A stretch of 64,000 bases of DNA, from positions 62,001 through 126,000 of the forward strand of contig JAFXKT010000001.1 in NCBI GenBank assembly GCA_017531585.1, written 5' to 3'. The translations under genes were made by a program, and so were the position numbers. Below, one piece after another: positions 6,885-42,753 of this stretch. Position 1 is the first letter of the stretch; every line of letters begins with the position of its first letter. Under the pieces are notes generated by a model. It was not told the DNA's origin. It made no database searches and worked only from the letters and a program-made list of their open reading frames with translations. The DNA is from Candidatus Saccharimonadota bacterium. Lineage in GTDB: Bacteria > Patescibacteriota > Saccharimonadia > Saccharimonadales > Saccharimonadaceae.

Positions 6885-6902
6885 CGAAAACACCTCTCTT
6901 TA

Positions 6903-15572: not shown

Positions 15573-18500
15573 CTAGTGCCCGATAACTTGTTGCAACGGC
15601 TTGAAGGTGTCCGCGTCGGATTCGCCAGCACGTTGAGTACCGCGGTTATCGTAGGCGGCACGAATAATCGCCTGGTCAGCCGTAGAAGCGCGTCTGTAGT
15701 AATTCGCAAGATTTTCAACTTCACCGCCAGCATAACCCGCCAACGCGCCACCACTAAAGCCTTCGCTATTAACAACCCTATGCATAACGTCGTCCTGATA
15801 ATTTTGATAATCTACAGCTCGTGCTTGCTCCTCTGGAGTCCCATTAGGGTCGCCCCTATCCGTAACAACCTGCCTTCCTGCAATCATATCTTGATACTTA
15901 ATATAATCCGACGGGCTCTTCGCAAGCATACCATTACCAGCGTGCTTGAGGCGCGCACGCGCGACTGCGGCCATAGTCTCTTGAGAAGCGCCCCTCTCGT
16001 TCATAAAACGCATAATCGTTTCGTCAATTGGGCCTTTCTTGTTACCATGCGTCCTACTCGCAGATGCGCTACGTGCAATGGCCTCAATCGTAGCACGTCC
16101 TTCGGCAGAATTTATATCAGTAACACGATTCTCCAAAGCATGCCAAACCGCATTCTCTTCATCCGTAACATGGTTGGCATCCAAATCAACACCCTCATCC
16201 TCAAGCGCCTGCATTTCATCTTTAACATTCTGCTCAAACATTGCCTGTTCTGGATGATCTGCCATATATTGAGCATCGCGACGTTCAGCCCTATCCTTCG
16301 AAGCAGCCTCTTCGGCAGCCATTCTTCTAGACGAGCTACGCGCTCTAGTTAGACGACCAAAGGCAGTTGCGTTGCCCTGCCTATCAACGCCAGCATTCAT
16401 GCGATTTGCCCTCGCCTCGGCACCATGTTGCATTCTCTTCGCAAAGTCCGAACCCTTGAAACCGCCAGTCATACGATTAGTCAGTCTTCTTGCAGCACCC
16501 TGAACCAAAGCGCCTAGCTTACCAGTAGAATTGATAATCATCTTTGGCAAGAAGAATATCGGAGCAACGTTGGCAGCAATAGCAATGACATATACTAGCG
16601 GATTAAATCCTAGACCAGCAAAGATACCAGAGTTTATTTCTTTTGCTCCACCCATTACAGTGACAATAATTTTCGCAGCAAAGTCACCACCGCTCACGAC
16701 CAGACTACATAACGGATATGCAATCAATAATCCGCTCACGAGCTTTGTCCATTTCCTAAAGGTTGCATTACCGGCCGGAACAAGATAGAACAGCAATGCG
16801 ATAGGTGCTGTAGTAGACAGAACAATAATAAGAGCCTGCCTCAAAATAAATATCAAGAACATCATAAGTACGGCAATAGCAACAATAATTATGGCCGAAA
16901 GAGCAAGAACAACAATAGATTGACCGCTCTTCAAGAAGCCGATAATAGAGAAGAAACCGGCTATGGCGACCAGTATGGAAGTACCCCCTTCAAACAACTC
17001 TCTTCCTGGCTTACCTCTAAAGAGGTCGCTAGGTGGAGGGGTGGCCGTAATGCCGTTTTTTACCGATTCAAATATATTTGTTATTGCTGAGCCAAATATA
17101 TTAGCAAGATCAACTGCCGCCCTAAACAATATGAACGAAAGATTTATAAGAAGCACACCAATAACAATGCGTGGCAACATCTTCTTAATGCCATAATTAT
17201 CGATTCCGATACCAGATATCTGCGACAAGATAATAATCAGAAGGAGGATTACTAGTACACCATTAGCGATAGTCCTTGCAGTATTCCAGGCATCGTAGAG
17301 ACCAGATTCTTTCTTAAAAACAGTCGGATCAAGATTCAAAAAGCCAGTTACATAAGTATAAATATTACCAACCTGCTCGCTAATCTCTTTTGTTGCTGCG
17401 CAGGCAAACCAGCTCCAACCGCCACTATTATCCGTGCACTTTGGTTCAGGCTCATCGCTATCATACAAATCTAGCGTAGAAAGTTCTGGCATAATAAATG
17501 CACTACTTACGCCATCCGTATCTATAAATAGACACTTATCATACTCATCCCCTTCTTTCCAGTCTGCCGGACATATAGTTAAGGCAATGTAATTCTCTGA
17601 AGCATTAGGATTACGGCCGATGGCCGAATTTATAGCACCGCCATTCTCGGAGTTTTTAATCCTAACATTTACCTTTTTATACTGCAGATCACCGTCCGAT
17701 ACTGGAGACATGTCTTCATCTTTGATTTCGTGAATTTTCGTAAGTGGATAGTCAACATACTCGCGAGTAGACGAAGTAGATATAAACGAATGCCCCTGAC
17801 CTAGTTCCCCGATTTTGGCAGGATAATCTACTAGCTGAATATTTTGCGGATCGATTGGCATACCACCAGCCAAGGCACTTACGCCGACCGTTATTACAAT
17901 ATCCTTATCATCCATCTCGATTTGCGTACTAGGAATCGCAAAAACTACATCTCTACCAGATTTAATCTTTGACGGGTCATAAATCGAACAAACAACACGG
18001 TCTGTACCTTTTAGTGTCTCTTCGTAATTATCGCCGTCATTACCCTCGAGCCCACCTTCAAAAAAGCTAGAGCAGGATCCCGGGCCACCCGTACCATTCT
18101 TTCCTGTTAGTTTATCTGCATTTTTCACCCGATAGAGCTTACTATTTTTATCTTGAATGTAACCCATAATATCGCTGCAACTGTATAAAACCTTGCCACG
18201 ATGAACCGTCATTCCGTCCTCACCATTACCCCCAAGAGTGCCAGTATTAAAGCCGACATACTGGTAATTATAGTTACTACCCGTTCCGTAGCCGTCAAGC
18301 AATTTCGTTTCACTATCCCTGTCATCAAGCCATGCGCCAACAGCCTCGAAGTGTTTTACTGAGCCGTCTTCGTGACACATCGTAAGCATGGTACTATATC
18401 GCTCAAACGAATAATCATTTTTAAGTGCCGAAGTTTCTAGATGATTCTCGTTCCAATAATTATCCCCTAAGGAAGCTCCCAAAAATGGATCATGATCATT

Positions 18501-18797
18501 ATTCCAAGCATGATACCAACACGAAATCGAGACTATATTATCTGCACTATAATACATACCATTTGGACCCGCATCTTCATCTACCCATGCTAAAGTCCCT
18601 TCTCTACTAGCACCCTCATCATTTTTATCGTAGCGCATATCAATACTGCCATTTCCAGACAATATTCCCGCTCCGCTGACCGTCGCTTCGACGTAATTTT
18701 TACAAGTATCAGTACCTGCCGCATAACTAGGAGAAACAGTAACAAAAAGAGCTAGCGCGAGCGAACAGGCCAATACTAATATCTTTTTCTGTTTCAT
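15573..18797 (-). CDS. P1: VirB6/TrbL-like polytopic protein with long C-terminal tail
   Basis: 1074 residues: signal peptide (cleavage near SYA), the largest of the five exterior regions (about 27-460), a C-x(n)-GWSWFAC motif, a hydrophobic core of several helices (about 505-765) and an Arg/Ala-rich cytoplasmic tail (about 770-1074). The core carries ILSQISG, YGIKKMLPR and INLSFILFRAAVDLANI, shared with P2-P5. VirB6/TrbL proteins form the inner-membrane passage of type IV secretion systems; here the family is inferred from topology and motif. S1 ends four bases upstream, so the two are likely translated together. P1 is the most divergent paralog: it keeps neither the CPL motif nor the NGD-x3-ME tail motif. 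The transported substrate is unknown. Confidence 0.75.
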   Translation of the reverse strand: MKQKKILVLACSLALALFVTVSPSYAAGTDTCKNYVEATVSGAGILSGNGSIDMRYDKNDEGASREGTLAWVDEDAGPNGMYYSADNIVSISCWYHAWNNDHDPFLGASLGDNYWNENHLETSALKNDYSFERYSTMLTMCHEDGSVKHFEAVGAWLDDRDSETKLLDGYGTGSNYNYQYVGFNTGTLGGNGEDGMTVHRGKVLYSCSDIMGYIQDKNSKLYRVKNADKLTGKNGTGGPGSCSSFFEGGLEGNDGDNYEETLKGTDRVVCSIYDPSKIKSGRDVVFAIPSTQIEMDDKDIVITVGVSALAGGMPIDPQNIQLVDYPAKIGELGQGHSFISTSSTREYVDYPLTKIHEIKDEDMSPVSDGDLQYKKVNVRIKNSENGGAINSAIGRNPNASENYIALTICPADWKEGDEYDKCLFIDTDGVSSAFIMPELSTLDLYDSDEPEPKCTDNSGGWSWFACAATKEISEQVGNIYTYVTGFLNLDPTVFKKESGLYDAWNTARTIANGVLVILLLIIILSQISGIGIDNYGIKKMLPRIVIGVLLINLSFILFRAAVDLANIFGSAITNIFESVKNGITATPPPSDLFRGKPGRELFEGGTSILVAIAGFFSIIGFLKSGQSIVVLALSAIIIVAIAVLMMFLIFILRQALIIVLSTTAPIALLFYLVPAGNATFRKWTKLVSGLLIAYPLCSLVVSGGDFAAKIIVTVMGGAKEINSGIFAGLGFNPLVYVIAIAANVAPIFFLPKMIINSTGKLGALVQGAARRLTNRMTGGFKGSDFAKRMQHGAEARANRMNAGVDRQGNATAFGRLTRARSSSRRMAAEEAASKDRAERRDAQYMADHPEQAMFEQNVKDEMQALEDEGVDLDANHVTDEENAVWHALENRVTDINSAEGRATIEAIARSASASRTHGNKKGPIDETIMRFMNERGASQETMAAVARARLKHAGNGMLAKSPSDYIKYQDMIAGRQVVTDRGDPNGTPEEQARAVDYQNYQDDVMHRVVNSEGFSGGALAGYAGGEVENLANYYRRASTADQAIIRAAYDNRGTQRAGESDADTFKPLQQVIGH

Positions 18798-18801
18798 TTT
18801 T

Positions 18802-19413
18802 TTATTTTTCCTCCGTAGTGGTATCTATCCAAGATTTAATATCCTTTGGTTGCGAATAGCCAGAAGTTCCGCCATCTCGACAAATAATCTCGGTTCCAGC
18901 AGGTAAATCAGGAATCATATTATTTATAAATTTCCTTAACCCAAAGTACTGATCGTTGAATTCTTCTCTCGTTATGATAACGCTATCCACTCGTCTCAGC
19001 TCCGCCTCTTTTTGGTATAGCTCATTTGCTTTTAGCAGATCAGAGACCGGTGACCAGATATAAGCTTTATCTTCTGTAACATAGAAAGCTTTTATTGTGT
19101 TTTCCGTTTGATAGCGACTCATATAAATCTTCTTCCAATCTTTGTCTGCCGCAAAAGTTATGCTCTGCTTTTTTGGATTCGGAATTGAGCCTCCTTTGAC
19201 GTATTGCAAATAGTCTTCCGTTTCCCAGGAGATCGTGCAGTCTACTGCTTCCTTCTTGTCTATTATGCGAGCAAACTCGCTACGCAAAACCTTATGCGCA
19301 GTAGCGTTCGTACGGTTTCGAATAGCCAAAATAGTAAGGACAACAAAAACAACCAAGAGGATTCCAACAATTACAGAGATAGTAACAATCGATTTCTTTT
19401 TCTCTTTTTCCAT
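18802..19413 (-). CDS. S1: single-pass membrane partner of P1
   Basis: 203 residues with a short basic cytoplasmic N-terminus, one membrane helix (about 10-31) and an extracellular domain with two Cys (VDCTISWE and IICRDGG). The domain shares with S2 and S3 a pattern: Cys in a beta strand, then DWKKIYMSRY (compare GWKNVFISNY in S3), then a Y-I-W strand, and a second Cys near the end. The size and N-in/C-out layout resemble VirB8-type components, but the fold cannot be assigned by eye; the YIW-strand pattern also recalls LolA/LppX-like beta sheets. The start at 19413 has GAGGAG seven bases upstream, located inside the last codons of P2. Confidence 0.68.
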   Translation of the reverse strand: MEKEKKKSIVTISVIVGILLVVFVVLTILAIRNRTNATAHKVLRSEFARIIDKKEAVDCTISWETEDYLQYVKGGSIPNPKKQSITFAADKDWKKIYMSRYQTENTIKAFYVTEDKAYIWSPVSDLLKANELYQKEAELRRVDSVIITREEFNDQYFGLRKFINNMIPDLPAGTEIICRDGGTSGYSQPKDIKSWIDTTTEEK

Positions 19414-19416
19414 ATC

Positions 19417-22400
19417 CTATCTCCTCATATTCTTTCTTCTTCTATCCATGCGACCGTTCAACAAATCAACAAAGCCATCTCTTGCATCTCTATTAAGTCT
19501 CCTCTCATCATCATTTGCACCATTAAAATCATTAAGACCAAGGCCGTCTACGCCCTCATCATGAGGTGTTCCGTCGCCATTATTCAGTCTAGTATATACT
19601 TCTTGAAGCGTTGCAAGCATCATCGCCTCAGCATCTTCAGACAAAGTAACGCCAGCATTACGGAGATTATCGCGGTATTTAGACTCGATAGCAATCTGAA
19701 TAGATTCCATACGAACCGTGTCGCCGTTCTTTGCAGCATTTTCATATTCTGTTTTTAGTGAGCTCTGAGCAATGCCGTTCACGAAGTCCATACCAATAGT
19801 ATCGACAAGTTTTTGGCCAGCCGCATTCGTAGTAGACATTCCATTAATTGCCGCCAAATCTGCTGCACGATTAGTGTGAACAGATTGGTTAACTGCATCC
19901 TCGCGAATACGGACGATGTTTTCAAGATTGCTTAGGCGCTCCGCGCTAATTGTGCCGCGCAAGCTTGGATCAGAAAGAATTTCCTCCGCAAGGTTGGCCG
20001 CAGCTGCTACGATACCATCCTCTGGATTATATCCAGTACCTGCACCATAAATATTCGGATCAGTAATTTCGTCAATAAGACGGTTCTGAGCAGAAATATC
20101 CATTTCGGAGAACTGCTTTGCAGACATACCGCGTATATCCTGACAATTCATCCTGAAGTTTGCATCATTATTCATGTTACCAGCGCCAATAGCACGATTT
20201 CTCTTGATTGCCTGAAGGCGATTGAATAGATAGCGATCCTTCTTCTTGATATCGTTCATTTCGGCCACGCTAACCGAGTCTGCAATGATCTCAAGAGCAG
20301 CACCCGAAAGACCATTGGTTCTTAGACACTGAAGCAAAGCATCACGACCAGCCTCGCCATTTCCAAGCAGGACAGTAATGTATGCAGAGGTAAGTTCAGT
20401 GTTTCCGGAGTTAGCGGCATCAATAATACTATCCGACATGCCATCTTCGGTCAGACCAGACTGCGCCTCAATCTGCTTAATATATTCCCTAGTCCTCTGA
20501 TTCTGAGTACTATTATTGATGTTTTCCTGAGTTGTTTCAAAGTCGCTCCTAACACCGGTAAAGTCTCCAGCCGCATTTCTGAAGGCCTGCGGAGTAAAGC
20601 TTTCGAATTCCCCACCGGCACCAAACATGCGATTCACGCGGCGTGTAATGCCCGCCGTCGATAGTCCCATGCGACGGTTGAATTCTAGTCTCCTGCGCAA
20701 AGCAGCCTTTTCTCTCAATAGGTCCGCAGAATCACCGCTTCTGTCCTGCAAGATCTGATCAAGCTGGTTATCTCCAGTAAGGTATGACCTACCGCGCCTA
20801 CGTTGAGCAGCCATAGCGTTCGCGTTCCTAGCATACATGGCACGAGACGGATGATTATAATAAGCATCACGGGCACGAGCAAACGCGCGAGTTACCGCGT
20901 TGTTGCCTGGTCTACGACGATTCTCGACGGTACCAGTCCTACGGTTATAATGAAGGCCGGCACGGCGGACATTGCGCCTAAATTCCTGGGTATCATTTTG
21001 ACGCTGAGCAAAAGCAGAACCACGAACTGCGCCAGACGTGTTACGAATTAGCGCATTGCCAATTCTCGACGTAATACCTTCCAGTGCCGTGAGGGACTTC
21101 ATAATAATTCTTGGAATGAAGAAGTATGGCACTGTGACCACTAGGAGACCAGCAATAGATTTTAGGAAGGTCTCAAAGAAATTATCCGCTTTAACTTGAG
21201 AAGTAAAGCCCCAAGCCTTCAGTAGTATCGACGAAGCATAAGATGAGCCATATACGACCAGGCTTGTCATCGGATAAGCAATCAATACGCCCTTAAATAT
21301 ACCGAACCATTTATTAAACACTCCTTTTGTTCCAGGTATCATATAGCAACATAGAGCGACTGGAGAAACAACGACAGCCAAGATGCATAGCGCCTGACGA
21401 ATAACCGAAACGGCAAGCATAATAAACATCGCAACCGCACATATGAGCAAAAGAGCAATAAGCGCAACCCAAATTCTGGCGCCAAAATGAATAATTGCCA
21501 CAACGACAGCGATTAGAACAAAGATAAGAGTAGCAATTGTTGAACCCTGGAAGGCGTCCGAATGAATTGGACCGCCCGAAGCCTCAAGCATTCCTTCGAA
21601 GATATCGCCGATCCTATGGCCAAAGATATTCGAAAGATCGATTGCGCCCTGGCAGATAAGATACGATAAATTAACCAACAGTGCCGCGATAACAATCTTT
21701 GGCAAGCTCTTCTTTATGCCATAGTTTGTTATACCAAAACCGCTAATCTGAGAAAGAATAACGATTAGCAGTGCCGCAACGAGCATTGCATTCGCAATAT
21801 CCCTAAAGCTACTCCATGCCTTATGAATAGCATAGCCAGCAGTTCCGCGTTTGTTGCCACTAAATACAGCTGGATCAATATTTAAGAAGAAGTCACTAAA
21901 GATATCGTAGACAGTCTTTAGGAAGTTAGACATTGATTCGGCGAGCGGGCAAGTAAAGAATCCTACCACACCGCCACATTGCTCTTCTTGCGTTTGCTGT
22001 TCATAAGTAATCGCGGCAGCTGCGGCAGCCTTTTGTTCCGCTGTAAGAGAATCACGGTATATCCCCTTATAGAGCATAGTACACGTAGCATGAGATTCAA
22101 AGCTATTATAGAAATGACTACTAGCACAACTGCCATAACCTTGCGTATTACTAGGCTGCCAGTTTCCAATTGGAGCCAAACCGTCAGGGCTAGAACCGGC
22201 AGGAAAATTACTAAAGGTTCTCTCAAGACTATCAACCACAATAGCATCACTAAATAAGTTATGACAAGAAAAGGCCCATTCATAGTCACCACCGCAGGCC
22301 GTATTGCCATCGTAACCGCATTCATCCGGCCCCATAGGGTGCCCTTCGGTATTACCAAACATCACCAAATCCGCACTTCCATCTACATAAGTAATGACAG

Positions 22401-22839
22401 CCCAAGTAGCACGAACATAATATGCGCCACTTTGAGTTATTCGACGAGTAGGATCACCTGCTTCATCAACTATGGATAGATCATCCGCATTAATGATAGA
22501 TATATTATCCGAACTTATAGGCTTGCTGTCATTGTATGGCTTTATTTTATAGCCAGGCTTCATCAAGAACGACATACCACAAGTTGCAGAAGTCGCATGC
22601 CCAAGATCACCACCGTAAAAGTTTGGAGCTAATCCTGCTGGTCCACTGTACGTACTACTTACACCTTCCGCTACTGGAATTACATGATCATAAGTAATAT
22701 CCGCCATCGCGTCTTGGGTGCTAGCATACTTACCTTCCTGCGCAAAGCTAGACTGAGAAATTATAACACCAAAGAAGAGCGACAAAAACAACGCCAAAAT
22801 CAGAGTTTTTCCGCGGCTCCTAAAGATACCTTTAGTCAT
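19417..22839 (-). CDS. P2: VirB6/TrbL-like polytopic protein with the longest tail
   Basis: 1140 residues: signal peptide (SSFA/Q), an exterior domain with several Cys (to about 285), GFFTCPL, a multi-helix core (about 345-595) with LSQISGFGI, YGIKKSLPK and LVNLSYLICQGAIDLSNIFG, and a tail of about 540 residues. The tail starts with Arg-rich stretches, then carries the G-E-A-G-R-D-A-L-L segment also seen in P3-P5 and AAKNGDTVRME near the end, matched in P3 and P4. It overlaps S2 by eight bases (ATGACTAA), the same junction as S3/P4, so translation is coupled. Role inferred as an inner-membrane channel of a type IV secretion-like system, with the tail as cytoplasmic scaffold or specificity region. 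Confidence 0.76.
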   Translation of the reverse strand: MTKGIFRSRGKTLILALFLSLFFGVIISQSSFAQEGKYASTQDAMADITYDHVIPVAEGVSSTYSGPAGLAPNFYGGDLGHATSATCGMSFLMKPGYKIKPYNDSKPISSDNISIINADDLSIVDEAGDPTRRITQSGAYYVRATWAVITYVDGSADLVMFGNTEGHPMGPDECGYDGNTACGGDYEWAFSCHNLFSDAIVVDSLERTFSNFPAGSSPDGLAPIGNWQPSNTQGYGSCASSHFYNSFESHATCTMLYKGIYRDSLTAEQKAAAAAAITYEQQTQEEQCGGVVGFFTCPLAESMSNFLKTVYDIFSDFFLNIDPAVFSGNKRGTAGYAIHKAWSSFRDIANAMLVAALLIVILSQISGFGITNYGIKKSLPKIVIAALLVNLSYLICQGAIDLSNIFGHRIGDIFEGMLEASGGPIHSDAFQGSTIATLIFVLIAVVVAIIHFGARIWVALIALLLICAVAMFIMLAVSVIRQALCILAVVVSPVALCCYMIPGTKGVFNKWFGIFKGVLIAYPMTSLVVYGSSYASSILLKAWGFTSQVKADNFFETFLKSIAGLLVVTVPYFFIPRIIMKSLTALEGITSRIGNALIRNTSGAVRGSAFAQRQNDTQEFRRNVRRAGLHYNRRTGTVENRRRPGNNAVTRAFARARDAYYNHPSRAMYARNANAMAAQRRRGRSYLTGDNQLDQILQDRSGDSADLLREKAALRRRLEFNRRMGLSTAGITRRVNRMFGAGGEFESFTPQAFRNAAGDFTGVRSDFETTQENINNSTQNQRTREYIKQIEAQSGLTEDGMSDSIIDAANSGNTELTSAYITVLLGNGEAGRDALLQCLRTNGLSGAALEIIADSVSVAEMNDIKKKDRYLFNRLQAIKRNRAIGAGNMNNDANFRMNCQDIRGMSAKQFSEMDISAQNRLIDEITDPNIYGAGTGYNPEDGIVAAAANLAEEILSDPSLRGTISAERLSNLENIVRIREDAVNQSVHTNRAADLAAINGMSTTNAAGQKLVDTIGMDFVNGIAQSSLKTEYENAAKNGDTVRMESIQIAIESKYRDNLRNAGVTLSEDAEAMMLATLQEVYTRLNNGDGTPHDEGVDGLGLNDFNGANDDERRLNRDARDGFVDLLNGRMDRRRKNMRR

Positions 22840-23578: not shown

Positions 23579-23584
23579 GTTTTT

Positions 23585-23606
23585 ATTTTATCATAAAACG
23601 CTTATG
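23585..23606 (-). promoter_or_regulatory. S2 promoter with palindrome, leaderless spacing
   Basis: TGATAAAAT with the -10 at 23585-23590, six bases before the ATG at 23578. The 15-base palindrome CATAA-N5-TTATG (23592-23606) sits where the -35/-10 spacer would be, as at the P5 promoter. Confidence 0.55.
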
Positions 23607-23621
23607 CTATTTTATAGCTAA

Positions 23622-26333
23622 TTAAGCAATTCTGTGCCCAGGCATACTAATTAGGTCAAGCTGAGCACCGATTACGTCTTGATGGCCATTAGCCTGAGCA
23701 GCAGCACGAGCGCCATTTGCCCAGCTATCAATATTCGTCCTGGCTGCCTCTACGGCCGCATCGTTCGTTCGGTTAGCAGCAGCATTTCTATAGGCATAGG
23801 CAACAGCCTCCATTCTCTCGGCATCGCCAGCCGCAGCCGCGGCATTGTAATCTGCCTGAGCCTGAGCATTCAATTGAGCAGAATTCATGCCATTATAAGC
23901 ACCAAATGCGCTACTCGCCGTAGCCCTAATGCGACTATTGCGCTGAGTCAAGAAGCCGTTTGCGCCAGTGAGAGCATCGAGCTTTTGGCTGTTGAGGCTT
24001 GGCGCCAACTTCTCATTATTCGCAAGACGTTCGGCAATCCTGGCAAATTCAACAGCCTGTCTACTATTATTGTTTGCAGGGTTAGCAGTAAGCTGGTTGA
24101 CGATTTCGTTGAATTCGGCAGTATCCATTTTGGCAACACTTTCTTCCGTGAGGTTATCCAGCATACCAGAATTAAATACATTGATAGTATTGTAATCGCC
24201 ACGCCCAATAGTTCCATTCTTGACACCTTCGATATAGGTAGCCATATGTGGGCTTACTTCGCGCAAAGCATCAATCTCATCTGCGCCAAAACTAGACATC
24301 ATAGCATTGAATGATTCATCGCTTAACGCATTTGGACCAGCTGTACGAGTGGCAAAAATATTAGCAAGTGCCGCACGACCTTCGCTAGACTCTTTAAGCT
24401 TGTTAGTATAGGCCGTAATTAGAGCATTATTATCATCGCTAGCATCCGCAGCAAGCGCAGCATTTAGATTTGTGGTCATATCCTGAACAGTTTCATTAGC
24501 GGAATCAATATGACTCTCATTCTCCCTTACTTTAGCAAGCGCCTCTTCCTGTCTTACCATGTCCGGGTTATTTCTATAATCCTGTACACGCCTATGCCTT
24601 GCATTAATAGCATCGGCCTGTCTTCGATAAGCAGCGCCGCCTGGCATTCTTGCCCAACGTTGCATCCTTCTTTCGTCGCCAGCCCTTCTGAGATCCTGGC
24701 CAAGACCAGATCTATTAAGGCGGTTCCTTGCGTGGCCAGTTATATTATTTCTAATGTTATCTACTACTTTATTGACAGCACCTAATGAAGCCGTAATGGT
24801 TTTCGGAATAAAGAAGAATGGCGCGACCGTAATTACTAAAGCGCTAGAAAAAGTAAGCAAACTATCACCCCAGACGCATGCCATAATTTTACCAAGCAAG
24901 GCGCCACCATAGACCATCAAGCTGGCGATCGGATAAGATAATAGCAAGCCCTTGCACAAATCGAGCCACTTCTTATATACCGACTTCGTACCAGGCAAAA
25001 CATAGCAAGCAAAAGCAATCGGAGAAACAGTCACTGCCAAAATCATCATCGCTTGACGGATACCCATCGTAATGAATAGGAACAGAATCGCAATTAGGGC
25101 AACAATGAGGGCGGCAAGCGCAAACAATAAGAGCGCCGGGTTAACGAATATCATTACAAGAATCAATGCAACAAGTCCGGCAACAAACAGGACTGCTCCC
25201 GCACCCAAAGTTACGGAACCAGAGGCAGTGGTTACCTGACTAATAGCATTCATTTCACCCTCTAGTATCCCCTTTAGGCCAAAGCCAACAATATTACTTA
25301 GATCGATAGCCGCCTGGCAAACAATATACGAAAGATTGATTAAAATTGCAGCCGTAATAAGGCGCGGCAATGCCTTCTTGATACCATAATTAGAGATACC
25401 AAACCCTGTTATTTGAGAGAGAATAATTATCAATAACAACAAAACTACTGCTATATTCGCTATATCCCTAAATCTAGACCAAGCTTCGTAGACGTTATTT
25501 CCCTCGCCAGACCGCGTAAATAATTGCGGCTCAACCAAAAGCCAATCTTCTATAACATTCGTATATATATCCGTAATAAAATCAGATGCGGTATAGAGCA
25601 ACGGGCAAGACACCCAGCCAAAAAGACCAGAAGCTTCATCTAGACACCTATCCGCAATATTGCTATGAATATGTACATCTATAGGCCTAAAAAGTGCCAT
25701 TCCAGAACAAGTAGTAGTGTCACTATTCTTCAGAAGGTCCATCTCGTAGCCGTACACAAAACCAGTACTATCGATGCCTATTAATCCTTTTCTGAAATCA
25801 CAAGTTGCTTTGTCAGCTTCCTTGTTTAGGATACATGCGCCAACGGACCACATGGAGAACGGTCTGCGATTCATACCTCCGCCACCAACCGCAACCTGAC
25901 TTATATCCACAGCGGACGCCAGCTGTATCTCATCTTCCGCTTCAAAATAATATCGTCCGTCGTCCTGCTTCTCGAATTTCGTAACCTTTATTTCCCGATC
26001 CGAAGACGACATTCCAGAATCTTCCTCAATGCTAGAATCGCCTTTCTTAGGAACCGATATTCCAAAAGAGGTCGCAGCGAAGCTTTTCTCCTCGTATTCA
26101 TTCTTGGCAGCACCGTTATTTCCGTCATGAATATAGCCGTTCAGCTCTACATTACCGTCTTTATCAACATCAATGGACGATATTGAAACTTGATCGAACG
26201 CACTACAATCAATATCATTTGCGAAGGCTGCTGAGGCTGGAGCAAAAGCACTAAAAACTGCCAAAAATAGAATTTTCAGCTTTACCAGAGATTTTTTACT
26301 CTTTTTTTGTTTATTGACCCAGCCCCTAATCAT
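23622..26333 (-). CDS. P3: VirB6/TrbL-like polytopic protein
   Basis: About 903 residues from the ATG at 26333; the ATG at 26339 touches the -10 box TAAAAT and so should not be used. Signal peptide (SAAFA), exterior domain with Cys, GWVSCPLL (about 240), multi-helix core (about 300-517) with LSQITGFGI, YGIKKALPR and LINLSYIVCQAAIDLSNIVG, then an Arg-rich linker and an Ala/Asn/Gln-rich helical tail containing GRAALANIF and AAGDAERMEA, both matched in the other tails. It has no S gene directly before it; P4 lies 17 bases upstream of the longer start, and the promoter overlaps the P4 end. P3 and P4 may share S3. Confidence 0.75.
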   Translation of the reverse strand: MIRGWVNKQKKSKKSLVKLKILFLAVFSAFAPASAAFANDIDCSAFDQVSISSIDVDKDGNVELNGYIHDGNNGAAKNEYEEKSFAATSFGISVPKKGDSSIEEDSGMSSSDREIKVTKFEKQDDGRYYFEAEDEIQLASAVDISQVAVGGGGMNRRPFSMWSVGACILNKEADKATCDFRKGLIGIDSTGFVYGYEMDLLKNSDTTTCSGMALFRPIDVHIHSNIADRCLDEASGLFGWVSCPLLYTASDFITDIYTNVIEDWLLVEPQLFTRSGEGNNVYEAWSRFRDIANIAVVLLLLIIILSQITGFGISNYGIKKALPRLITAAILINLSYIVCQAAIDLSNIVGFGLKGILEGEMNAISQVTTASGSVTLGAGAVLFVAGLVALILVMIFVNPALLLFALAALIVALIAILFLFITMGIRQAMMILAVTVSPIAFACYVLPGTKSVYKKWLDLCKGLLLSYPIASLMVYGGALLGKIMACVWGDSLLTFSSALVITVAPFFFIPKTITASLGAVNKVVDNIRNNITGHARNRLNRSGLGQDLRRAGDERRMQRWARMPGGAAYRRQADAINARHRRVQDYRNNPDMVRQEEALAKVRENESHIDSANETVQDMTTNLNAALAADASDDNNALITAYTNKLKESSEGRAALANIFATRTAGPNALSDESFNAMMSSFGADEIDALREVSPHMATYIEGVKNGTIGRGDYNTINVFNSGMLDNLTEESVAKMDTAEFNEIVNQLTANPANNNSRQAVEFARIAERLANNEKLAPSLNSQKLDALTGANGFLTQRNSRIRATASSAFGAYNGMNSAQLNAQAQADYNAAAAAGDAERMEAVAYAYRNAAANRTNDAAVEAARTNIDSWANGARAAAQANGHQDVIGAQLDLISMPGHRIA

Positions 26334-26339
26334 AATCAT

Positions 26340-26345
26340 ATTTTA
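26340..26345 (-). promoter_or_regulatory. P3 extended -10 box, leaderless spacing
   Basis: TATGGTAAAAT on the minus strand, six bases before the ATG at 26333. Confidence 0.5.
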
Positions 26346-26356
26346 CCATATTAGCA

Positions 26357-29029
26357 TTAGCGGAATCTGTTCTCTCTTGCGCGGACTAGGCCCACCGAAG
26401 CGCGAATTGCGCCGCGCACACGCTCATCGCCAGTAAACGAAGCTTGCGTGACATTCGTGCGCCAACCAGACAAAGTATCCTCAACCGTAGCAGCATTAAT
26501 AGTCGAGCCCGCGCGTGTAGCCGCATTTCTAAAGGCCTGCTCGGCAGCTTCCATACCGACAGTATCGCCATTGCGCGCATTCCTCTCGTATTCTGCCTGA
26601 TAGTAATCAACTTCGTTTGTAAACCTGCCAGAACTAATCGCAGAAGCACTGCCGCTCTCAATTACACCAGCATTAGCAGTCACCGCATTGCTGCGCTGAG
26701 TCGTAAAGTTAGTAATATCTTGACGCGCCTGAGCATTAATATGCTGAGACAACTCAGGATTGCTCTGAGCTTCTTCCATCATCCTCTGTAGGTTAGCCGC
26801 CATAGCACCACCCAAGTTTGCGCCCGCCTCGGTAGCCATGCGATGCGAATCGCGGTCATCCATCTTGAGGTAATCTTGACCAGACAATGTGCTAAGAAGA
26901 TCATCGCTGAGGCGAGTGTAATTAATATTGCCATGGTTACCATTCTTAACATCCAAGAGATGCTGTGCAATATATGGAGACTCTTTGGTCATATCGTAAA
27001 GCTCTTCCTGAGAGAAAGCATTTGCCATTGCATCTGCAGTTTCGTCGTCATAGTTGTGCGTCTGCATGTTATCATGCAAAACCGTACGACCATCACTAGT
27101 CGCAGACAGCTTTCTCGTACAGGCCGCAACCCTTGCGTGATTGCCGCTCGCCTGTGCGCGCTCTAGCTCTTCGCCAAGCTCGTCAGCAGAATAATTCATC
27201 GTTTCAAGGCGCTTCTCTTCAAGACCAACCTGTTTCTGGAACTGCTCATTTCTAAAGACATCAGGGTTCTGAGCGATATCATTACGCCTATTGCGTTTAT
27301 TAAGAACGGCTTGCGCGCCAGGAAGATACATATTCTGACTCGCTCTTCTGCCGCGTCGCTGAACTAGCTGACCATTGCGAATTCTCACGCCAGCTAGACG
27401 TAAAGCTTTTCTATCTGCCTGATCCTGCATACGATTCGACATAAAGGTACTGTTACTAACGACACGATTCGCACTTCTACTTGTACTTCTCTGAATCTTA
27501 CTGATCATATTCTGGATTGCGCCAAGAGAGGCCGTAATTGTCTTTGGAATAAAGTAATATGGAACAACACAAATAATTAGAGCCGCCAAATCCGCCACCG
27601 TAGTTAGCAGACGATTAGATGCATCCGTGTCCCAAACTTCGTGCAAAATTTGCGCCGCCATTGCGCCACCATAAACCATAATACTGGCGATAGGATAGGC
27701 GATTAGAACACCCTTCAATAAATCAAACCACTTCTTAAATATTGACTGAGTGTTTGGCAAAATATTACAAATAAACGCAATCGGAGCAACCGTTACGAGA
27801 ATGATCGCTAAAGCCTGACGCAAACCGAGAGAGATAATCAAAATCAAGACGCCGCCCAAGATGCCAAGGAAGCCCATAATAAGCGGCGGCATCAAGGCTG
27901 GAATCATAATAACAGCAAAAATCGTCGCCGCAATCAAGCCAACAGCAAGCACAATAGCGCCCGCCGAAACACTCAAATCTGTTAGAGCAACATCAAAGAA
28001 GCCACCGATATTTGTACCGACAATATTCGAAAGATCAACTGCTGCCTGGCAGATAATATAGGACATATTTACTAGAATGGCCGAAATAATTACACGCGGC
28101 AACATTTTCTTAATGCCATAGTTTGTAATACCAAAGCCAGAAATTTGAGAGAAAATCATCGCAATAATGACTACGACAAGCAAGCCATTAGCTATATTTC
28201 TAAACCATGACCACGCATTAAAAACAGAAGACCCGCCACCATTCCTATTTAGGAGCTCTGGCTCTAGTCGCAGCATATCCGCAATCACATCTTCGTAGAG
28301 ACTCGTAATAGCATCGCCAAGGCCAGTCAAAAGCGGACAGGTAATCCAACCGATTAGACCATTCGTAGATCTACAAGTATCTGCAATGTCTTCTTCATCC
28401 TCTTTTTCTACCTCTTCGTAGCCGACCTTTTCGTCTGCAACAGTAGGTAGCATTTCTGGACAGCCATCAATATCATCGGCAGCAGGCATACCATTTTGTT
28501 CGATGACTCGGTTGTTATAATTCTTGTTATTATATTCCCTACAATACGCCGTCGAAGCATCCGCCTCACGAATACAAATATTAAAGCTAAACTCGTAAAA
28601 AGCTGGGTACTGGTCTTCTAGAGGGATAGGACCATAAATATTGTTGCCGTCTTTATCTATGCCCTGATTAACATTTGTATTTGAAATAGAGCCAGAAGTT
28701 TTGGAGCCCCAAAATTTATAGGTGCCGTCCTGTTGCTTAATGACTCTATAAACCTGGTATTTTGCTGTAACGTTTTCGTCGTGGCTAGAATCGGTAATCT
28801 TGATATCGTCTACGGTATATTCATGGGCAGCCGCGCTCTTATTGGGGCCGCCAATAACCCCCGAGACGTGGATCGAGCTATTCGGCTTGACGTTCTTTTC
28901 GTAATTTACGCCAAAGAGATAATCGTGCGTATCTACACAAGTAGTTGTTGGGTCAGCAAAAACATTCTGCCCAAACACAACAGAGGCAAGAAGAATAAAT
29001 CCAAATCTTACAAGCCATTTTTTAGTCAT
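26357..29029 (-). CDS. P4: VirB6/TrbL-like polytopic protein
   Basis: 890 residues: signal peptide (NVFA), an exterior region that includes an acidic Glu/Asp run before the motif C-x(6)-GWITCPLL (about 228), multi-helix core (about 285-510) with FSQISGFGI, YGIKKMLPR and LVNMSYIICQAAVDLSNIVG, and a tail with Arg-rich linker, GRTVLHDNM and ARNGDTVGMEAAEQAFRNAA. The core is closest to P3 by eye. The start overlaps S3 by eight bases with the same ATGACTAA junction as S2/P2, so coupling is strongly implied. As with the other P proteins the substrate and the ATPase partner are not in the window. Confidence 0.76.
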   Translation of the reverse strand: MTKKWLVRFGFILLASVVFGQNVFADPTTTCVDTHDYLFGVNYEKNVKPNSSIHVSGVIGGPNKSAAAHEYTVDDIKITDSSHDENVTAKYQVYRVIKQQDGTYKFWGSKTSGSISNTNVNQGIDKDGNNIYGPIPLEDQYPAFYEFSFNICIREADASTAYCREYNNKNYNNRVIEQNGMPAADDIDGCPEMLPTVADEKVGYEEVEKEDEEDIADTCRSTNGLIGWITCPLLTGLGDAITSLYEDVIADMLRLEPELLNRNGGGSSVFNAWSWFRNIANGLLVVVIIAMIFSQISGFGITNYGIKKMLPRVIISAILVNMSYIICQAAVDLSNIVGTNIGGFFDVALTDLSVSAGAIVLAVGLIAATIFAVIMIPALMPPLIMGFLGILGGVLILIISLGLRQALAIILVTVAPIAFICNILPNTQSIFKKWFDLLKGVLIAYPIASIMVYGGAMAAQILHEVWDTDASNRLLTTVADLAALIICVVPYYFIPKTITASLGAIQNMISKIQRSTSRSANRVVSNSTFMSNRMQDQADRKALRLAGVRIRNGQLVQRRGRRASQNMYLPGAQAVLNKRNRRNDIAQNPDVFRNEQFQKQVGLEEKRLETMNYSADELGEELERAQASGNHARVAACTRKLSATSDGRTVLHDNMQTHNYDDETADAMANAFSQEELYDMTKESPYIAQHLLDVKNGNHGNINYTRLSDDLLSTLSGQDYLKMDDRDSHRMATEAGANLGGAMAANLQRMMEEAQSNPELSQHINAQARQDITNFTTQRSNAVTANAGVIESGSASAISSGRFTNEVDYYQAEYERNARNGDTVGMEAAEQAFRNAATRAGSTINAATVEDTLSGWRTNVTQASFTGDERVRGAIRASVGLVRARENRFR

Positions 29030-30230
29030 TGCTAGAGCTAATTTCAGCCTTTCGTGCTTTTAGTAGCTCTGCAAATTCACTCATATCCGCATCTTTACAA
29101 ACGATAGTAACGTCGCCCGCCTCAGTATCATTTGCATCAGCAGAGCTCATTTGGAAATTATCATACAAGTTTGTTTCGAGAGCATTTTCTATTTGTTCGC
29201 GGTCAACTTCGAGTGTTGGCGCAATGCCTTCATAAGCGTCCGTAATACGATAGACAGCTTTGCCGTCGCCACCTGCGCGTGGAGTCTTAGTTACGGACCA
29301 AATATATGCAGTGTTGTTCTCGATATAGATCGAGCTTGGCCTATATTTCAAATCATAACGGTTTACAATAGAGTTTTCTTTGGCCTTCGCAGAGCTAAAG
29401 TCATAGTTACTAATAAAGACATTCTTCCAACCATCGTCAGCAGCAATCGTCCAAGCCTTCTCGGCAAAGATATCATACTCACCTTCGGCGTAATCCGAAC
29501 CGTTATGCGACGATTTGTTGTAAGTTGCAGTACAGTTTAGAGCCTGTCTATTCTTGATCTTATTATTGTATTCTTCGTAGCTCACTTTGCCGTCGCTTTC
29601 TGCAGGCTTACTTGGATTCTGTGGCTCGTTTTTCTTATTCAAGACATAGAACGCAAAAATACCACCGCCAATCAAGACAATGACGCCAAGAGCAATCAAA
29701 ATAATTAACGGCAAAGACAAAGCTTTCTTACGCTCAACTTCTGGTTCTGGAGCAAAGAAATTCTGAACTGGAGCCGGTTCTGGAGATGGAGCCGGCTTAA
29801 ACTCAGGCGCTGGCGGAGGAAGTTCTTCCTCGACAGGTTCTGGTTCTGGAGCTGGAGCTGGCATTGGTTCCGGTTCAGGCGTAACCGGTTCTTCGACAAC
29901 TGGAGCAACAGGCACTGGTTCTGGTTCTGGAGTTGGTGGCAAATCTGGCTCGCCAGAAATAAACTGAAAGTTATTATCATCTTCACCATGACCAAAAGAA
30001 GTTGCAGAGCCCGCAACAGTAACCTCTGGTTCATAGTTTGTATTTGTAACACTAAATGCATTCGCACGATCATGAGAAGACGTAGCATACGCACGGTTAT
30101 CTACCTGGCTTCTAAGCTCTTCTAGCTGCGCATCTTTGCTAGCAGGAAGCGCATTATTTGTACCGTCTGCAAAAGAATTGTCCTTGGCGGAATTGTTGTT
30201 GTTTTGAGCCGCCTGATTGCTCTTATCCAT
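29022..30230 (-). CDS. S3: single-pass membrane partner of P4 with Pro/Glu-rich cytoplasmic stalk
   Basis: 402 residues. Residues 1-90 are polar; 93-165 are a Pro/Glu-rich stalk with repeated P-E-P-E-P units; a membrane helix spans about 171-196; the extracellular part carries Cys in LNCTATYNK and VTIVCKDAD plus DDGWKNVFISNY and T-A-Y-I-W-S, the S-family pattern. Pro/Glu-rich stalks before a single helix occur in envelope-spanning proteins such as TonB and VirB10 and would let the cytoplasmic end reach other components; that comparison is only architectural. The start has a -10 box six bases upstream (leaderless prediction), and the end is coupled to P4. Confidence 0.7.
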   Translation of the reverse strand: MDKSNQAAQNNNNSAKDNSFADGTNNALPASKDAQLEELRSQVDNRAYATSSHDRANAFSVTNTNYEPEVTVAGSATSFGHGEDDNNFQFISGEPDLPPTPEPEPVPVAPVVEEPVTPEPEPMPAPAPEPEPVEEELPPPAPEFKPAPSPEPAPVQNFFAPEPEVERKKALSLPLIILIALGVIVLIGGGIFAFYVLNKKNEPQNPSKPAESDGKVSYEEYNNKIKNRQALNCTATYNKSSHNGSDYAEGEYDIFAEKAWTIAADDGWKNVFISNYDFSSAKAKENSIVNRYDLKYRPSSIYIENNTAYIWSVTKTPRAGGDGKAVYRITDAYEGIAPTLEVDREQIENALETNLYDNFQMSSADANDTEAGDVTIVCKDADMSEFAELLKARKAEISSSND

Positions 30231-30236
30231 ATTTTT

Positions 30237-30242
30237 ATTTTA
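30237..30242 (-). promoter_or_regulatory. S3 extended -10 box, leaderless spacing
   Basis: TGGTAAAAT on the minus strand, six bases from the ATG at 30230; no ribosome site in between. Confidence 0.5.
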
Positions 30243-30270
30243 CCACAAAGTTTATGCTTATTTATTTTGT

Positions 30271-32562
30271 TTACGCTAGCCACGAACCTGTTGATGGGCC
30301 ACTTAGGTTCTCGGAGGCAAATTGCTCGAGCATTCTTCTCTTTTCTACCGACAGCTCACTAGCGTTACTACTACTAAGCAAATCTCGAACTGATTGCTGT
30401 ACATGTGCTGCCGCGTGCGTACCCGAGTTCTGGCGTATCTGATTGAGATAATTATCTACGGCACGGGTATCCATCGTCTTGAAGCTTGCACCCGTAGTTC
30501 TGTTAACCTGATCGTTAGTGAGCTGACGCGTAGATAGCCTACCAGCGGCGGCGACACCATTAGTCGTAACATCTCTTGCCCAGTCAGACATAACCATATC
30601 TTCATTCCTGAGCTGTTCACGACCGCGATTCAACTCGCCAGCAATATTCGTAAGAGCCGTCTCTGCTTGTGCGCCGCCCGTAGTTTCGAGCTGACCAATT
30701 CTATTCGCAAGCGCATCACGACCATTATCTCCTTGCTGCCTGAGTCTGCGCGTGATTGCAGCATCCATTGCCGGATCATTAGTAGTGCCAAGCATATTTG
30801 CAAGCTGCTCAGATGTCATGCTGCCCTGTCTATCTAGGCGAGTATTTGCCTCAGAAATAAGCTGTTCATCAAGTGTATTACGCCTGAAACGGGCATCCCT
30901 ATAATTATTCATATCCCCGATCCGAGCACCCAATCCCTGAGCATCGGCCAAATGATCATTCATGTGCCTTGTTCTAAAATGTCGGCGCATCACGACCGTA
31001 CCATCTCTTCGGATATGTGTACCACTCGCGCGTTCGACCTTGCGCTTTTGTGTCTGGCGCCTCATCCTATCCGCCATACGACTGTTGCCTACAGCGTTCT
31101 GAGCTCCACCAGTTACGCGCTGTCTCATTCTCAAAATTGCGCCATCAATAGCAGCGACCGAGCTAGTCGTAATCTTTGGCAAGAAACACGGCGGAACAAC
31201 AACCACCGCTATGCCAATGAGGCCCGAGACGAAGTTATCCTCGCCCATCGACTTTACAACTAGGCGCCCAGCAAACGAACCACCATAAACCAAAAATGCC
31301 GCAATTGGATAAGTAAATATTAGCCCCTTAAATAGTCCGAACCATTTCTTGTATAGTTTCTCGGTACCAGGCAACACCGCACAGGCAATCGCTATCGGCG
31401 AAATGATTACCAAGCCCGTCATTAATGCTTGGCGCACAACCAGCATTATAAAAGTGAAGAAGATAGTTACGCCGGCACCTATGAGTGCAAAGAGGATTGG
31501 CAACAAGAATGCAGGCCCAAAGAAGAAGGCAGCAATAATAACACCGACCAAAACTACAATAAGCGCTAATAATCCCCCCGTGCCATTCACGGCGCTTGAA
31601 CCCTCAGCCGAAAGAACCACCGATTGATTTAGCGTCTTAAAGATGCCGCCAACACCACTACCAAGAATGTTACTGATATCTACAGCTCCCTGACAGACAA
31701 GATACGAGAGGTTCACGATTATAATCATAACAACAGCACGCGGAAGCGCCTTCTTGATACCATATTGTTGAATCTGCCAACCAGAAATTTGCGAGAAAAT
31801 AATCAACAAAAGATAGACAATAAACAGAGCATTGGCGATATTACGAATATCCGACCAAACCTTGAATGTTACCTTTCCTGCATTAGAAGACTGCTGCAAA
31901 GCTTGTGGCGGATAAATAAGCCATTCTTCTATAAGATGTTCGTAGAGGTACGTAATTAGATTAGACAAATCATCCGCGAGCGGACAGGCAAACCAGCCCA
32001 TCTCTGGATTATCTCCGTAGCAAGTCGACTGTTCAGTCATGAAGTTTTCATACTCACCACCAGCAGCCATAGCATCTGCAGAGTTAGCCGTAGACGCTTC
32101 AGTCCCATCACCATTTGCCTCGTGTATACACTGCACAACCTCACTAATCGAGTGGCCCGAGCCTTGCATTATGCCTGCCTGCATCTGCAAACAATAGTCT
32201 TCGGTAGGTACGGCCGTAGTAGTTGTCGTAGTACTATCACTCGGAACAGATGGATCTCGCCCCGCTGGCTCTGTCTCCGGCTCAGTCGTCGGTTCGGTCG
32301 TCGGCTCGGTAGTAGTTGTGGTAGTTGTAGTTGTCGTAGTAGACTCAGTCGGCTCGGTTGTAGTAGTCGTAGTGTTTTGCTGATTCTGCTGAGCCCAGAT
32401 TTCTTCGCAAGTCACACCCCTTTCTACTTGGTCAACCGTCATTGTACAGGTAGTCTCTGCATAAGTATCTTGCCCAAAAAGATTAAGGACGCCCGCAAAC
32501 AAAAAGGCCGCAAAAACTGCACATACAATCCCCCACCTTCTTATATGAGTCTTTTGCGACAT
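30271..32562 (-). CDS. P5: VirB6/TrbL-like polytopic protein with Thr-rich exterior tract
   Basis: 763 residues, the shortest paralog and the first of the array in transcription order. After the signal peptide (residues to about 31) comes a low-complexity Thr/Glu/Pro tract (about 65-105) that may be a flexible, possibly glycosylated linker. GWFACPL is at about 189, the multi-helix core (about 240-474) has FSQISGWQI, YGIKKALPR and IVNLSYLVCQGAVDISNILG, and the tail is shorter, with GRDALANRI but without the NGD-x3-ME motif. It has its own palindromic promoter and no paired S gene. Twelve bases separate the -10 from the start, and no ribosome site is evident. Confidence 0.75.
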   Translation of the reverse strand: MSQKTHIRRWGIVCAVFAAFLFAGVLNLFGQDTYAETTCTMTVDQVERGVTCEEIWAQQNQQNTTTTTTEPTESTTTTTTTTTTTEPTTEPTTEPETEPAGRDPSVPSDSTTTTTTAVPTEDYCLQMQAGIMQGSGHSISEVVQCIHEANGDGTEASTANSADAMAAGGEYENFMTEQSTCYGDNPEMGWFACPLADDLSNLITYLYEHLIEEWLIYPPQALQQSSNAGKVTFKVWSDIRNIANALFIVYLLLIIFSQISGWQIQQYGIKKALPRAVVMIIIVNLSYLVCQGAVDISNILGSGVGGIFKTLNQSVVLSAEGSSAVNGTGGLLALIVVLVGVIIAAFFFGPAFLLPILFALIGAGVTIFFTFIMLVVRQALMTGLVIISPIAIACAVLPGTEKLYKKWFGLFKGLIFTYPIAAFLVYGGSFAGRLVVKSMGEDNFVSGLIGIAVVVVPPCFLPKITTSSVAAIDGAILRMRQRVTGGAQNAVGNSRMADRMRRQTQKRKVERASGTHIRRDGTVVMRRHFRTRHMNDHLADAQGLGARIGDMNNYRDARFRRNTLDEQLISEANTRLDRQGSMTSEQLANMLGTTNDPAMDAAITRRLRQQGDNGRDALANRIGQLETTGGAQAETALTNIAGELNRGREQLRNEDMVMSDWARDVTTNGVAAAGRLSTRQLTNDQVNRTTGASFKTMDTRAVDNYLNQIRQNSGTHAAAHVQQSVRDLLSSSNASELSVEKRRMLEQFASENLSGPSTGSWLA

Positions 32563-32574
32563 AATGTTAGTTTT

Positions 32575-32596
32575 ATTTTAGCATAAACGTTTTATG
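32575..32596 (-). promoter_or_regulatory. P5 promoter with perfect 15-base palindrome
   Basis: TATGCTAAAAT with -10 at 32575-32580; CATAAA-CGT-TTTATG at 32582-32596 abuts it upstream. Likely an operator, or coincidental overlap with the extended -10. Confidence 0.55.
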
Positions 32597-42699: not shown

Positions 42700-42705
42700 A
42701 TTATT
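42700..42705 (-). promoter_or_regulatory. -10 box of the NUDIX unit, leaderless spacing
   Basis: TGCAATAAT on the minus strand, six bases from the ATG at 42693. Confidence 0.45.
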
Positions 42706-42724
42706 GCATTTTTTCGAAAAGGTC

Positions 42725-42753
42725 TTTACATTACATTTCGCTTATGCTATATT
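42725..42753 (+). promoter_or_regulatory. Promoter of the propeller/Big_2 surface protein
   Basis: TTTACA (42725-42730), 17 bases ending CGCTTATGC, TATATT (42748-42753). The CGCTTATG just before the -10 also occurs at the pilin promoter at 1447. Confidence 0.65.

Follow-up and report, generated by a model that had tools for sequence, protein, structure and literature searches.

Introduction

VirB6 is a pentamer in the solved type IV secretion system (T4SS) machines, and R388 TrwI/VirB6 and Legionella DotA both form a pentameric platform or protochannel. The nearest precedent for a locus with many VirB6 proteins comes from the Rickettsiales, which carry four to five VirB6 paralogs, i.e. RvhB6a-e in Rickettsia and VirB6-1 to -4 in Anaplasma/Ehrlichia (PMC2653234, PMC7648143). 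These paralogs are expressed, and two of the Anaplasma members are surface exposed (PMC7648143). In a recent review, the purpose of extended VirB6 domains is listed as not known (PMC12857230). Similarly, the role of the T4SS in Saccharibacteria has been termed “completely unknown” (PMC11665869). According to another report (PMC12102498), a Saccharibacterium needs its T4SS for epibiotic growth, and this system is among the few host-contact machines shown to be essential for it. As described in that report, VirB4, a TrsD-like protein, PrgI and VirB6 are encoded in one locus in TM7x and Southlakia epibionticum together with a VirB2 pilin array and a lysozyme/peptidase gene, the FATA-like systems of Patescibacteria have no relaxase, and VirB6 profiles found 480 proteins in 3,035 genomes. 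VirB2 arrays are reported there; VirB6 arrays and a module of VirB6 with a single-pass partner (S) are not mentioned in its accessible part. By our literature search, a VirB6 array in Patescibacteria, the S partner and the turnover of exterior domains are new.

An array of five extended VirB6-like proteins and three partners

The window (the whole stretch of 64,000 nucleotides analysed; coordinates are positions in it in forward-strand numbering) is from a tiny bacterium whose group lives on other bacteria. On the minus strand, ORF calls give five homologous, polytopic, extended VirB6-like proteins (P1-P5) interleaved with three homologous single-pass proteins (Sa, Sb and Sc). All eight reading frames that an earlier note on this DNA had placed at 15573-32562 are present, and they are open under table 11 with no need for the table 25 code. 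P1 (30271-32562, 763 aa; exterior 32038-32475, core 31051-32037, predicted cytoplasmic tail 30274-31050) opens the array and, like P3 (23622-26339, 905 aa; exterior 25659-26216, core 24678-25658), has no S partner of its own. The other three are paired, i.e. Sa (29022-30230, 402 aa) with P2 (26357-29029, 890 aa; exterior 28391-28954, core 27413-28390), Sb (22832-23578, 248 aa) with P4 (19417-22839, 1140 aa; exterior 21994-22740, core 20983-21993), and Sc (18802-19413, 203 aa) with P5 (15573-18797, 1074 aa; exterior 17454-18719, core 16422-17453). The genes are packed closely with 8 bp overlaps (Sa/P2 and Sb/P4) or gaps of 3-43 bp. Directly upstream on the same strand is a gene for a DUF11-repeat surface protein with an LPXTG-like C terminus (32792-34948), and a DUF11-type surface protein is also encoded upstream of the S-P module in the relatives L021, L017, L023 and L027.

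Each P protein has an N-terminal hydrophobic, signal-like segment followed by an exterior stretch of ~145-420 aa, a C-x(n)-GW-like-C pair, ~6-8 hydrophobic segments including the N-terminal one, and a tail of 260-520 aa. Based on the signal-like segment, the number of TM segments and the Arg-rich tail, we infer an N-out, C-in topology. The signal-like segment and the Cys pair are common to all five proteins as the earlier note had described, while the LPR motif listed there reads LPK in P4. The same note had raised the case that the five cores are unrelated; every pair of P proteins aligns over the core by blastp, with E-values from 2e-44 to 6e-111.

The proposal that these cores are VirB6/TrbL-like was supported by structure comparison, including against the case that structure would point elsewhere. 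The model of the P3 core is helical, and most of its core blocks reach pLDDT 75-96. Using Foldseek against 350,542 PDB chains, its best matches were R388 TrwI/VirB6 (probability 0.96-0.99, E 0.0095), and structural re-alignment ranked Legionella DotA first (Z 8.9, 215 aligned) and TrwI second (Z 7.6, 240 aligned). These scores are modest, with E 0.0095 as the best and a Z of 8.9 within reach of chance helical matches; VirB6-family entries head both lists. P4 matched the Pfam TrbL profile PF04610 below the cut-off (E 0.0037, 17.5 bits; cut-off 25.9), and five of 12 family cores match this profile at E<=1, the best at 2.4e-7 in relatives, with no match for the remaining cores. The core profile had no match among PDB chain sequences. 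As modelled, the P core is a VirB6-like helical core that resembles TrwI and DotA, its top structural matches; it differs from them in sequence, in the large N-terminal exterior and C-terminal cytoplasmic domain that P adds, and in occurring as five or six paralogs. No P exterior or S protein matched Pfam or NCBIfam over the cut-off, the P4 and P5 exteriors had no match among PDB chain sequences, and these searches revealed a recognisable fold or ligand for none of the exterior domains. A fold name for the P3 exterior was dropped because the model blocks, at pLDDT 29-62, are too low.

The single-pass partners

Sa has a Pro/Glu-rich N-terminal tail, which is predicted to be cytoplasmic, a TM segment near aa 175-193 and then an exterior domain. 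The homology of the S proteins holds by blastp (Sa-Sb, E 2e-6; Sa-Sc, E 7e-6), but the motifs previously described as shared are not invariant: DGWKN is KDWKK in Sc, and YIW is YVW in Sb. The S exteriors are conserved (omega 0.07-0.15) and the variable part lies elsewhere; therefore, these exteriors have the look of parts of a machine and not of domains that confer specificity.

The LolA superfamily fold is an unclosed beta-barrel with embedded helices, while the exterior of VirB8 has an NTF2-like fold. The top matches of the Sc model (pLDDT 74.7) are weak yet consistently of the LolA/LolB/RseB/LprG superfamily (Foldseek E 0.09; Z 5.1, rmsd 6.1), suggesting a LolA-like half-barrel. Unlike members of this superfamily, S is membrane-anchored, single-pass and encoded with VirB6, and there is no sequence match between them. 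S resembles VirB8 in being a single-pass, N-inside bitopic protein encoded beside VirB6; however, the Sc model, itself weak, is closer to LolA than to the NTF2-like fold. VirB8, which is absent among the structure matches listed for this model, is still a candidate. In relatives, the S slot more often holds a helical exterior (type II), whereas the exterior of S in the window is of type I. The two types fill the same slot, but they could not be treated as one family because hhalign detected no homology between their exteriors (probability 0.1%), and weak links between them were produced by a profile that took in the TM segment.

The T4SS of the genome and the array in relatives

The earlier note reported that the window has no VirB4, which is correct because the T4SS locus of the genome lies outside it. 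A search beyond the window found virB4 on the same contig (C4:262141-263940). In this locus (L003/L004), ~173 kb from the array, a sixth VirB6 paralog (VirB6-A) is encoded with prgI, a TraC/TrsD-like gene, virB4, a pilin array (10 pilin-domain matches in a single cluster) and a lysozyme/peptidase gene; for TrsD, the evidence is a weak TraC match (E 0.002) plus the place of the gene in the locus. A 348-aa single-pass protein of this locus is, like the S proteins of type II described above, a candidate counterpart of VirB8. Thus, the genome encodes a T4SS with VirB4, VirB3/PrgI and pilin that the array would serve. As in the FATA-like systems, a relaxase is lacking to the extent that the genome has no match to PF03432, and no VirD4-type match was over the cut-off.

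The rule of usually one VirB6 per system, as given in the earlier note, has a known exception in the Rickettsiales with their four to five, and the present genome has a sixth VirB6 with its own T4SS. The two cases are similar in having four to five extended VirB6 genes in tandem (five here) in an obligately host-dependent bacterium, in protein size (674-1154 aa there and 763-1140 aa here) and in that the paralogs are strongly diverged with unrelated flanking regions. By contrast, the Rickettsiales genes form one operon with virB3-virB4 in a Gram-negative system with no S partner described, while here the array is a separate locus in a monoderm, FATA-like Patescibacteria type, with P paired with S and an additional VirB6 at the T4SS locus. 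We therefore file the array as working in a comparable manner and not as a member. The parallel with Rickettsia, which is unrelated, host-dependent and has kept five extended VirB6 proteins, suggests that VirB6 has been multiplied repeatedly where bacteria use a T4SS to live on or inside other cells.

Our core profile finds VirB6 in 138 of the 147 genomes of the class, compared to the 480 in 3,035 genomes reported in PMC12102498. In the family, S immediately precedes a long-exterior VirB6 in 74 of 102 cases compared to 7 of 455 control genes, and the two genes form a conserved module. Conservation of the array among relatives, a check the earlier note had proposed, is of two kinds: the distant relative L027 has the identical eight-gene order at ~41% identity, with P1, P4 and P5 orthologous to those in the window (tree, 100% bootstrap), while most congeners have one extra VirB6 and not five. 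Three genomes (G000, G058 and G154) have 5+1 copies. Elsewhere in the family, in genus g7, extended VirB6 genes are in tandem beside T4SS genes, e.g. virB4-trsD-prgI-(lipoprotein)-VirB6-VirB6-pilins in G039 (L011), the only case of tandem VirB6 beside prgI/virB4 among the loci compared, and pilins followed by five VirB6 in G079 (L008). Because these arrays are without S, S is dispensable for multi-VirB6 systems.

Exterior domains turn over while core, tail and partner are kept

As had been claimed, the P exteriors differ, and they diverge much faster than the cores. Between relatives, the core, the cytoplasmic tail and S are kept, and exteriors are swapped, lost or replaced. In P4, the exterior is 62% identical and the core 97%. 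Compared with the near relative L026, the replaced P4 exterior (22050-22800, minus strand) is 59-74% identical in DNA and the flanks on both sides are ~91-98% identical, while L025, another relative, retains 89-92% across the segment. Strong purifying selection acts on core and tail (omega 0.04-0.15), S is under purifying selection too, and the P tails, but not the exteriors, are homologous between the window and the L027 orthologs. Fast exterior evolution could also come from phage or immune pressure.

Proposed function of the array

We suggest a model in which the array encodes lineage-specific extended VirB6 subunits with variable extracellular domains for the chromosomal T4SS, and we regard this T4SS role, with host contact, as the probable reading. 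In this model, the five extra VirB6 proteins and three partners would serve the genome's one VirB4/PrgI/VirB2-type T4SS. Each P would be anchored by its VirB6-like helical core with the N-terminal domain outside the cell and the C-terminal tail in the cytoplasm. At the foot of the VirB2 fibre, the core would form the VirB6 platform/protochannel or decorate it, and the conserved tail and S would keep P attached to the machine. The variable exterior, probably for host contact and presumably by binding to the host surface, would face the neighbouring cell; because exteriors are exchanged between strains, the bacterium could vary or combine contact surfaces. The array thus suggests exchangeable contact parts on a T4SS, its conservation and fast-swapped exteriors provide candidate host-facing parts and testable genes, and it bears on the purpose of extended VirB6 domains. 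Points against the model are the modest structure scores, exteriors in which the searches recognised no fold or ligand, the genus g7 arrays that do without S, the other pressures that could explain fast exterior evolution, and the distance of ~173 kb from the T4SS locus.

That distance, together with the quick exterior turnover and the DUF11/LPXTG-type gene immediately upstream, would also fit P proteins that are stand-alone surface proteins outside any secretion machine, with duplicated VirB6 cores that do no more than anchor variable adhesin or decoy domains, and with S as a partner that helps in folding or anchoring. We consider this unlikely, although it deserves to be taken seriously, because a plain anchor needs no tail that remains homologous where exteriors do not, core and tail are under strong purifying selection, and the multiplied VirB6 genes of genus g7 adjoin T4SS genes. 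It is likewise rather unlikely that phage or other antagonists using P as receptors, and not host choice, are the main cause of exterior variability: the abrupt, local allele replacement in the P4 exterior is also typical of phage-receptor loci, but the exterior pattern alone fits both pressures alike. Such a driver would still leave room for the P cores to act in the T4SS.

The fixed set of five in a fixed layout in distant relatives is the basis for a more specific and doubtful idea, namely that the five paralogs, like the VirB6 pentamer of the solved machines, come together in a single hetero-pentamer. This would be an asymmetric VirB6 ring in which each subunit has a different extracellular domain and which the three S proteins hold in place. 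It is similarly doubtful that this ring crowns or replaces the ordinary VirB6-A platform on meeting a host. Finally, we reject an origin as the leftover of an integrated conjugative element or second T4SS as highly improbable, because, although conjugative elements typically carry VirB6/TrbL proteins, as is well established and stated in the Pfam description, neither virB4 nor a relaxase is nearby, the genome lacks a PF03432 match and a VirD4-type match over the cut-off, the site beside folD/murB is kept in several congeners and family members, and the array genes are under purifying selection.

Promoter-like elements

Matches in sigma-70 and terminator scans were no commoner than chance. Extended -10-like elements on the minus strand are present before P1 (TGCTAAAATAAAA, 32571-32583) and, with leaderless spacing, immediately before Sa (TGGTAAAATAAAA, 30233-30245) and Sb (TGATAAAATAAAA, 23581-23593). 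We rejected the argument that a common promoter proves co-regulation with prgI: TTATGNTAAAATA occurs at 28 sites across the genome compared to one in the control, and many of these precede housekeeping genes, e.g. those for ribosomal proteins, triosephosphate isomerase and pyruvate kinase (names read from translations).

Relationship of the array proteins to VirB6

The eight open reading frames of the array at 15573-32562 are real and lie on the minus strand at the coordinates assigned to them in the earlier note, in the order P1, Sa, P2, P3, Sb, P4, Sc, P5, with 8 bp overlaps or gaps of 3-43 bp between genes; an LPXTG-type surface protein with DUF11 repeats is encoded immediately upstream. 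As the earlier note had proposed from shared motifs, the five extended VirB6-like proteins P1-P5 are related to one another, with homology over a core of ~330 residues in every pair (blastp E 2e-44 to 6e-111), and their N-terminal exteriors and C-terminal tails are of unequal lengths and mostly divergent in sequence. The single-pass proteins Sa, Sb and Sc are genuine homologs by blastp, with weaker homology than the P proteins; P2, P4 and P5 each have an S partner and P1 and P3 have none.

The TrbL/VirB6 Pfam profile matches P4 weakly and under the cut-off (E 0.0037), and matches the same core in relatives with E down to 2.4e-7. In a structure model of P3 built from 66 relatives, the helical core is well predicted (blocks mostly pLDDT 75-96), and its top Foldseek matches among 350,542 PDB chains are R388 TrwI/VirB6 (probability 0.96-0.99; E modest, best 0.0095). 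Structural re-alignment ranks DotA, Legionella's VirB6 counterpart, first (Z 8.9), followed by TrwI (Z 7.6). Because VirB6-family entries head both lists, we read the P cores as VirB6, in line with the VirB6/TrbL-like assignment made earlier, although the single scores are moderate.

The T4SS locus and the distribution of VirB6

The window spans C4:62001-126000 in a genome of 1.01 Mb, which has six VirB6 cores, five in the array and one at C4:267699-268700 on the same contig, ~173 kb from the array. The sixth belongs to a T4SS locus of the classic Patescibacteria kind, where its neighbours are prgI (E 2e-11), a TraC/TrsD-like gene, virB4 (P-loop_TraG, E 4e-30), a VirB2-type pilin array and a gene of lysozyme/GDSL/NlpC type; ten pilin-domain matches occur in the genome. 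Given prgI, virB4 and the pilin array around the sixth VirB6, the organism thus possesses a T4SS. The earlier note saw no VirB4 ATPase within the window; beyond it, virB4 is present at this locus. No VirD4-type match scored above the cut-off in the genome, and a search for one relaxase family found no member there.

The VirB6 core is present in 138 of 147 genomes of the class, mostly as one copy in other families and as two or three in the family of the window. Most of the 45 genomes of the window's genus have one to three copies, and three (G000, G058 and G154) have six, five clustered on a single contig plus one. In the tree, the T4SS-locus copies of the genus separate from a second VirB6 type, and the array expansions fall inside genera. 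In g7, another genus of the family, tandem extended VirB6 genes adjoin T4SS genes, named here by sequence resemblance to those of the window genome: G039 has the order virB4-trsD-prgI-lipoprotein-VirB6-VirB6-pilins, and G079 has pilins followed by five VirB6 genes, shortly after which the contig ends. This placement lends independent support to a T4SS role. A contig titled "uncultured Oscillospiraceae" (L070) carries a Saccharibacteria VirB6 that groups among Saccharibacteria in the tree; the probable cause is mis-binning or mislabelling of a MAG contig.

The S-VirB6 module

Among long-exterior VirB6 genes with sufficient upstream sequence, 74 of 102 have a single-pass gene (170-500 aa) directly upstream, compared with 7 of 455 other large genes of the same loci. 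The partners have two kinds of exterior, between which homology was not detected: type I occurs in the five-gene arrays, where G000, G058 and G154 each have all three genes and a fragment of G167 has two, and the helical type II occurs in most relatives. Further members of the genus, G140 and G045 (loci L015 and L023), have at least two S-VirB6 pairs, in which the exteriors are very long and VirB6 reaches 1718 aa; these are apparently separate expansions.

In a model of Sc (pLDDT 74.7), a TM helix leads into an antiparallel sheet accompanied by helices, and the best structural matches of the model are LolA and relatives, which are weak (Foldseek E 0.09; Z 5.1, rmsd 6.1). From this model, S may be a half-barrel of lipid- or peptide-binding type occupying the place that VirB8 has elsewhere. 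VirB8 itself has seldom been detected in Patescibacteria (PMC12102498). Separately, a 348-aa single-pass protein of the T4SS locus, at L003:13504-14550, adjoins virB4 and the lysozyme gene, has no Pfam match above the cut-off, and is a candidate for the VirB8 missing from this phylum.

Conserved parts and changing exteriors

L027, a distantly related Saccharibacterium locus from cattle jejunum whose best array core is 41% identical to the P3 query, carries the DUF11 gene together with all eight genes of the array, arranged as in the window. In a tree with the window proteins, P1, P4 and P5 pair with their counterparts at 100% bootstrap, and P2 and P3 pair crosswise, a pattern indicating that the five paralogs predate the split of the two lineages and stayed together. 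The ortholog tails are still homologous (E 2e-7 to 3e-24), whereas between the exteriors no homology was found except over 38 residues at the P1 N terminus; in L027 P2 and P4, the exterior is nearly absent (37-38 residues), with the P2 start an uncertain ORF call.

Relative to the near relative L026, omega is 0.065-0.109 for the P1-P5 cores, 0.066-0.145 for the S exteriors and 0.042-0.145 for the tails. Most P exteriors evolve faster, with omega of 0.455 in P1, 0.452 in P3 (77% identity) and 0.38 in P5, while that of P2 barely exceeds its core (0.131 vs 0.109). The P4 exterior is 62% identical with a dS of 1.52, compared with 0.15 for the P4 core. Across 22050-22800, DNA identity to L026 is 59-74%, compared with about 91-98% in the flanks, and 89-92% is retained to L025, another relative; judged from these identities, the difference is a local allele replacement. 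Considering omega and the L027 comparison together, the core, the tail and S resemble components of a machine, and the exterior resembles an outward-facing domain that can be exchanged.

Model and precedents

With homology, the S-P module, gene order and selection pattern established by the analysis, we suggest a model in which the P cores would build or decorate a VirB6 platform, the tails and S would link them to the machine, and the exteriors would extend outward and be exchanged between strains. Membership of the array products in the T4SS, their surface exposure and host contact are what we infer. As a precedent, Rickettsiales retain four to five extended VirB6 genes of sizes similar to the five in the window (PMC2653234, PMC7648143), and in Anaplasma two of the VirB6 proteins are surface exposed. 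Because VirB6 forms pentamers in the R388 and Dot/Icm systems (PMC12857230), the five paralogs might conceivably assemble as a hetero-pentamer; this is unlikely, and it is opposed by the presence of a sixth VirB6 and by genomes that retain just one or two additional copies.

T4SS and VirB2 arrays have already been described in Patescibacteria (PMC12102498), and clade-specific VirB6 variation was noted earlier in oral TM7 (PMC7739484). A search of the open-access literature brought up no account of VirB6 arrays, the S-VirB6 module or exterior swapping for the phylum.

Promoter-like motif and other surface genes

The extended -10-like motif TTATGNTAAAATA lies at 23581-23593, 30233-30245, 32571-32583 and 1443-1455 in the window. 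It is a strong motif with 28 sites genome-wide, compared with 1 for the reversed control, and many sites precede housekeeping or membrane-protein genes. As it stands a few bases ahead of many start codons, many transcripts look leaderless. At 241-6893, three neighbouring surface proteins, one of 1420 aa, have DUF7601 domains and C-terminal membrane anchors and likely form a second surface-protein cluster, and the 650-aa product of 42704-44656, in which a bacterial Ig-like (Big_2) domain occurs, is a possible further surface protein.
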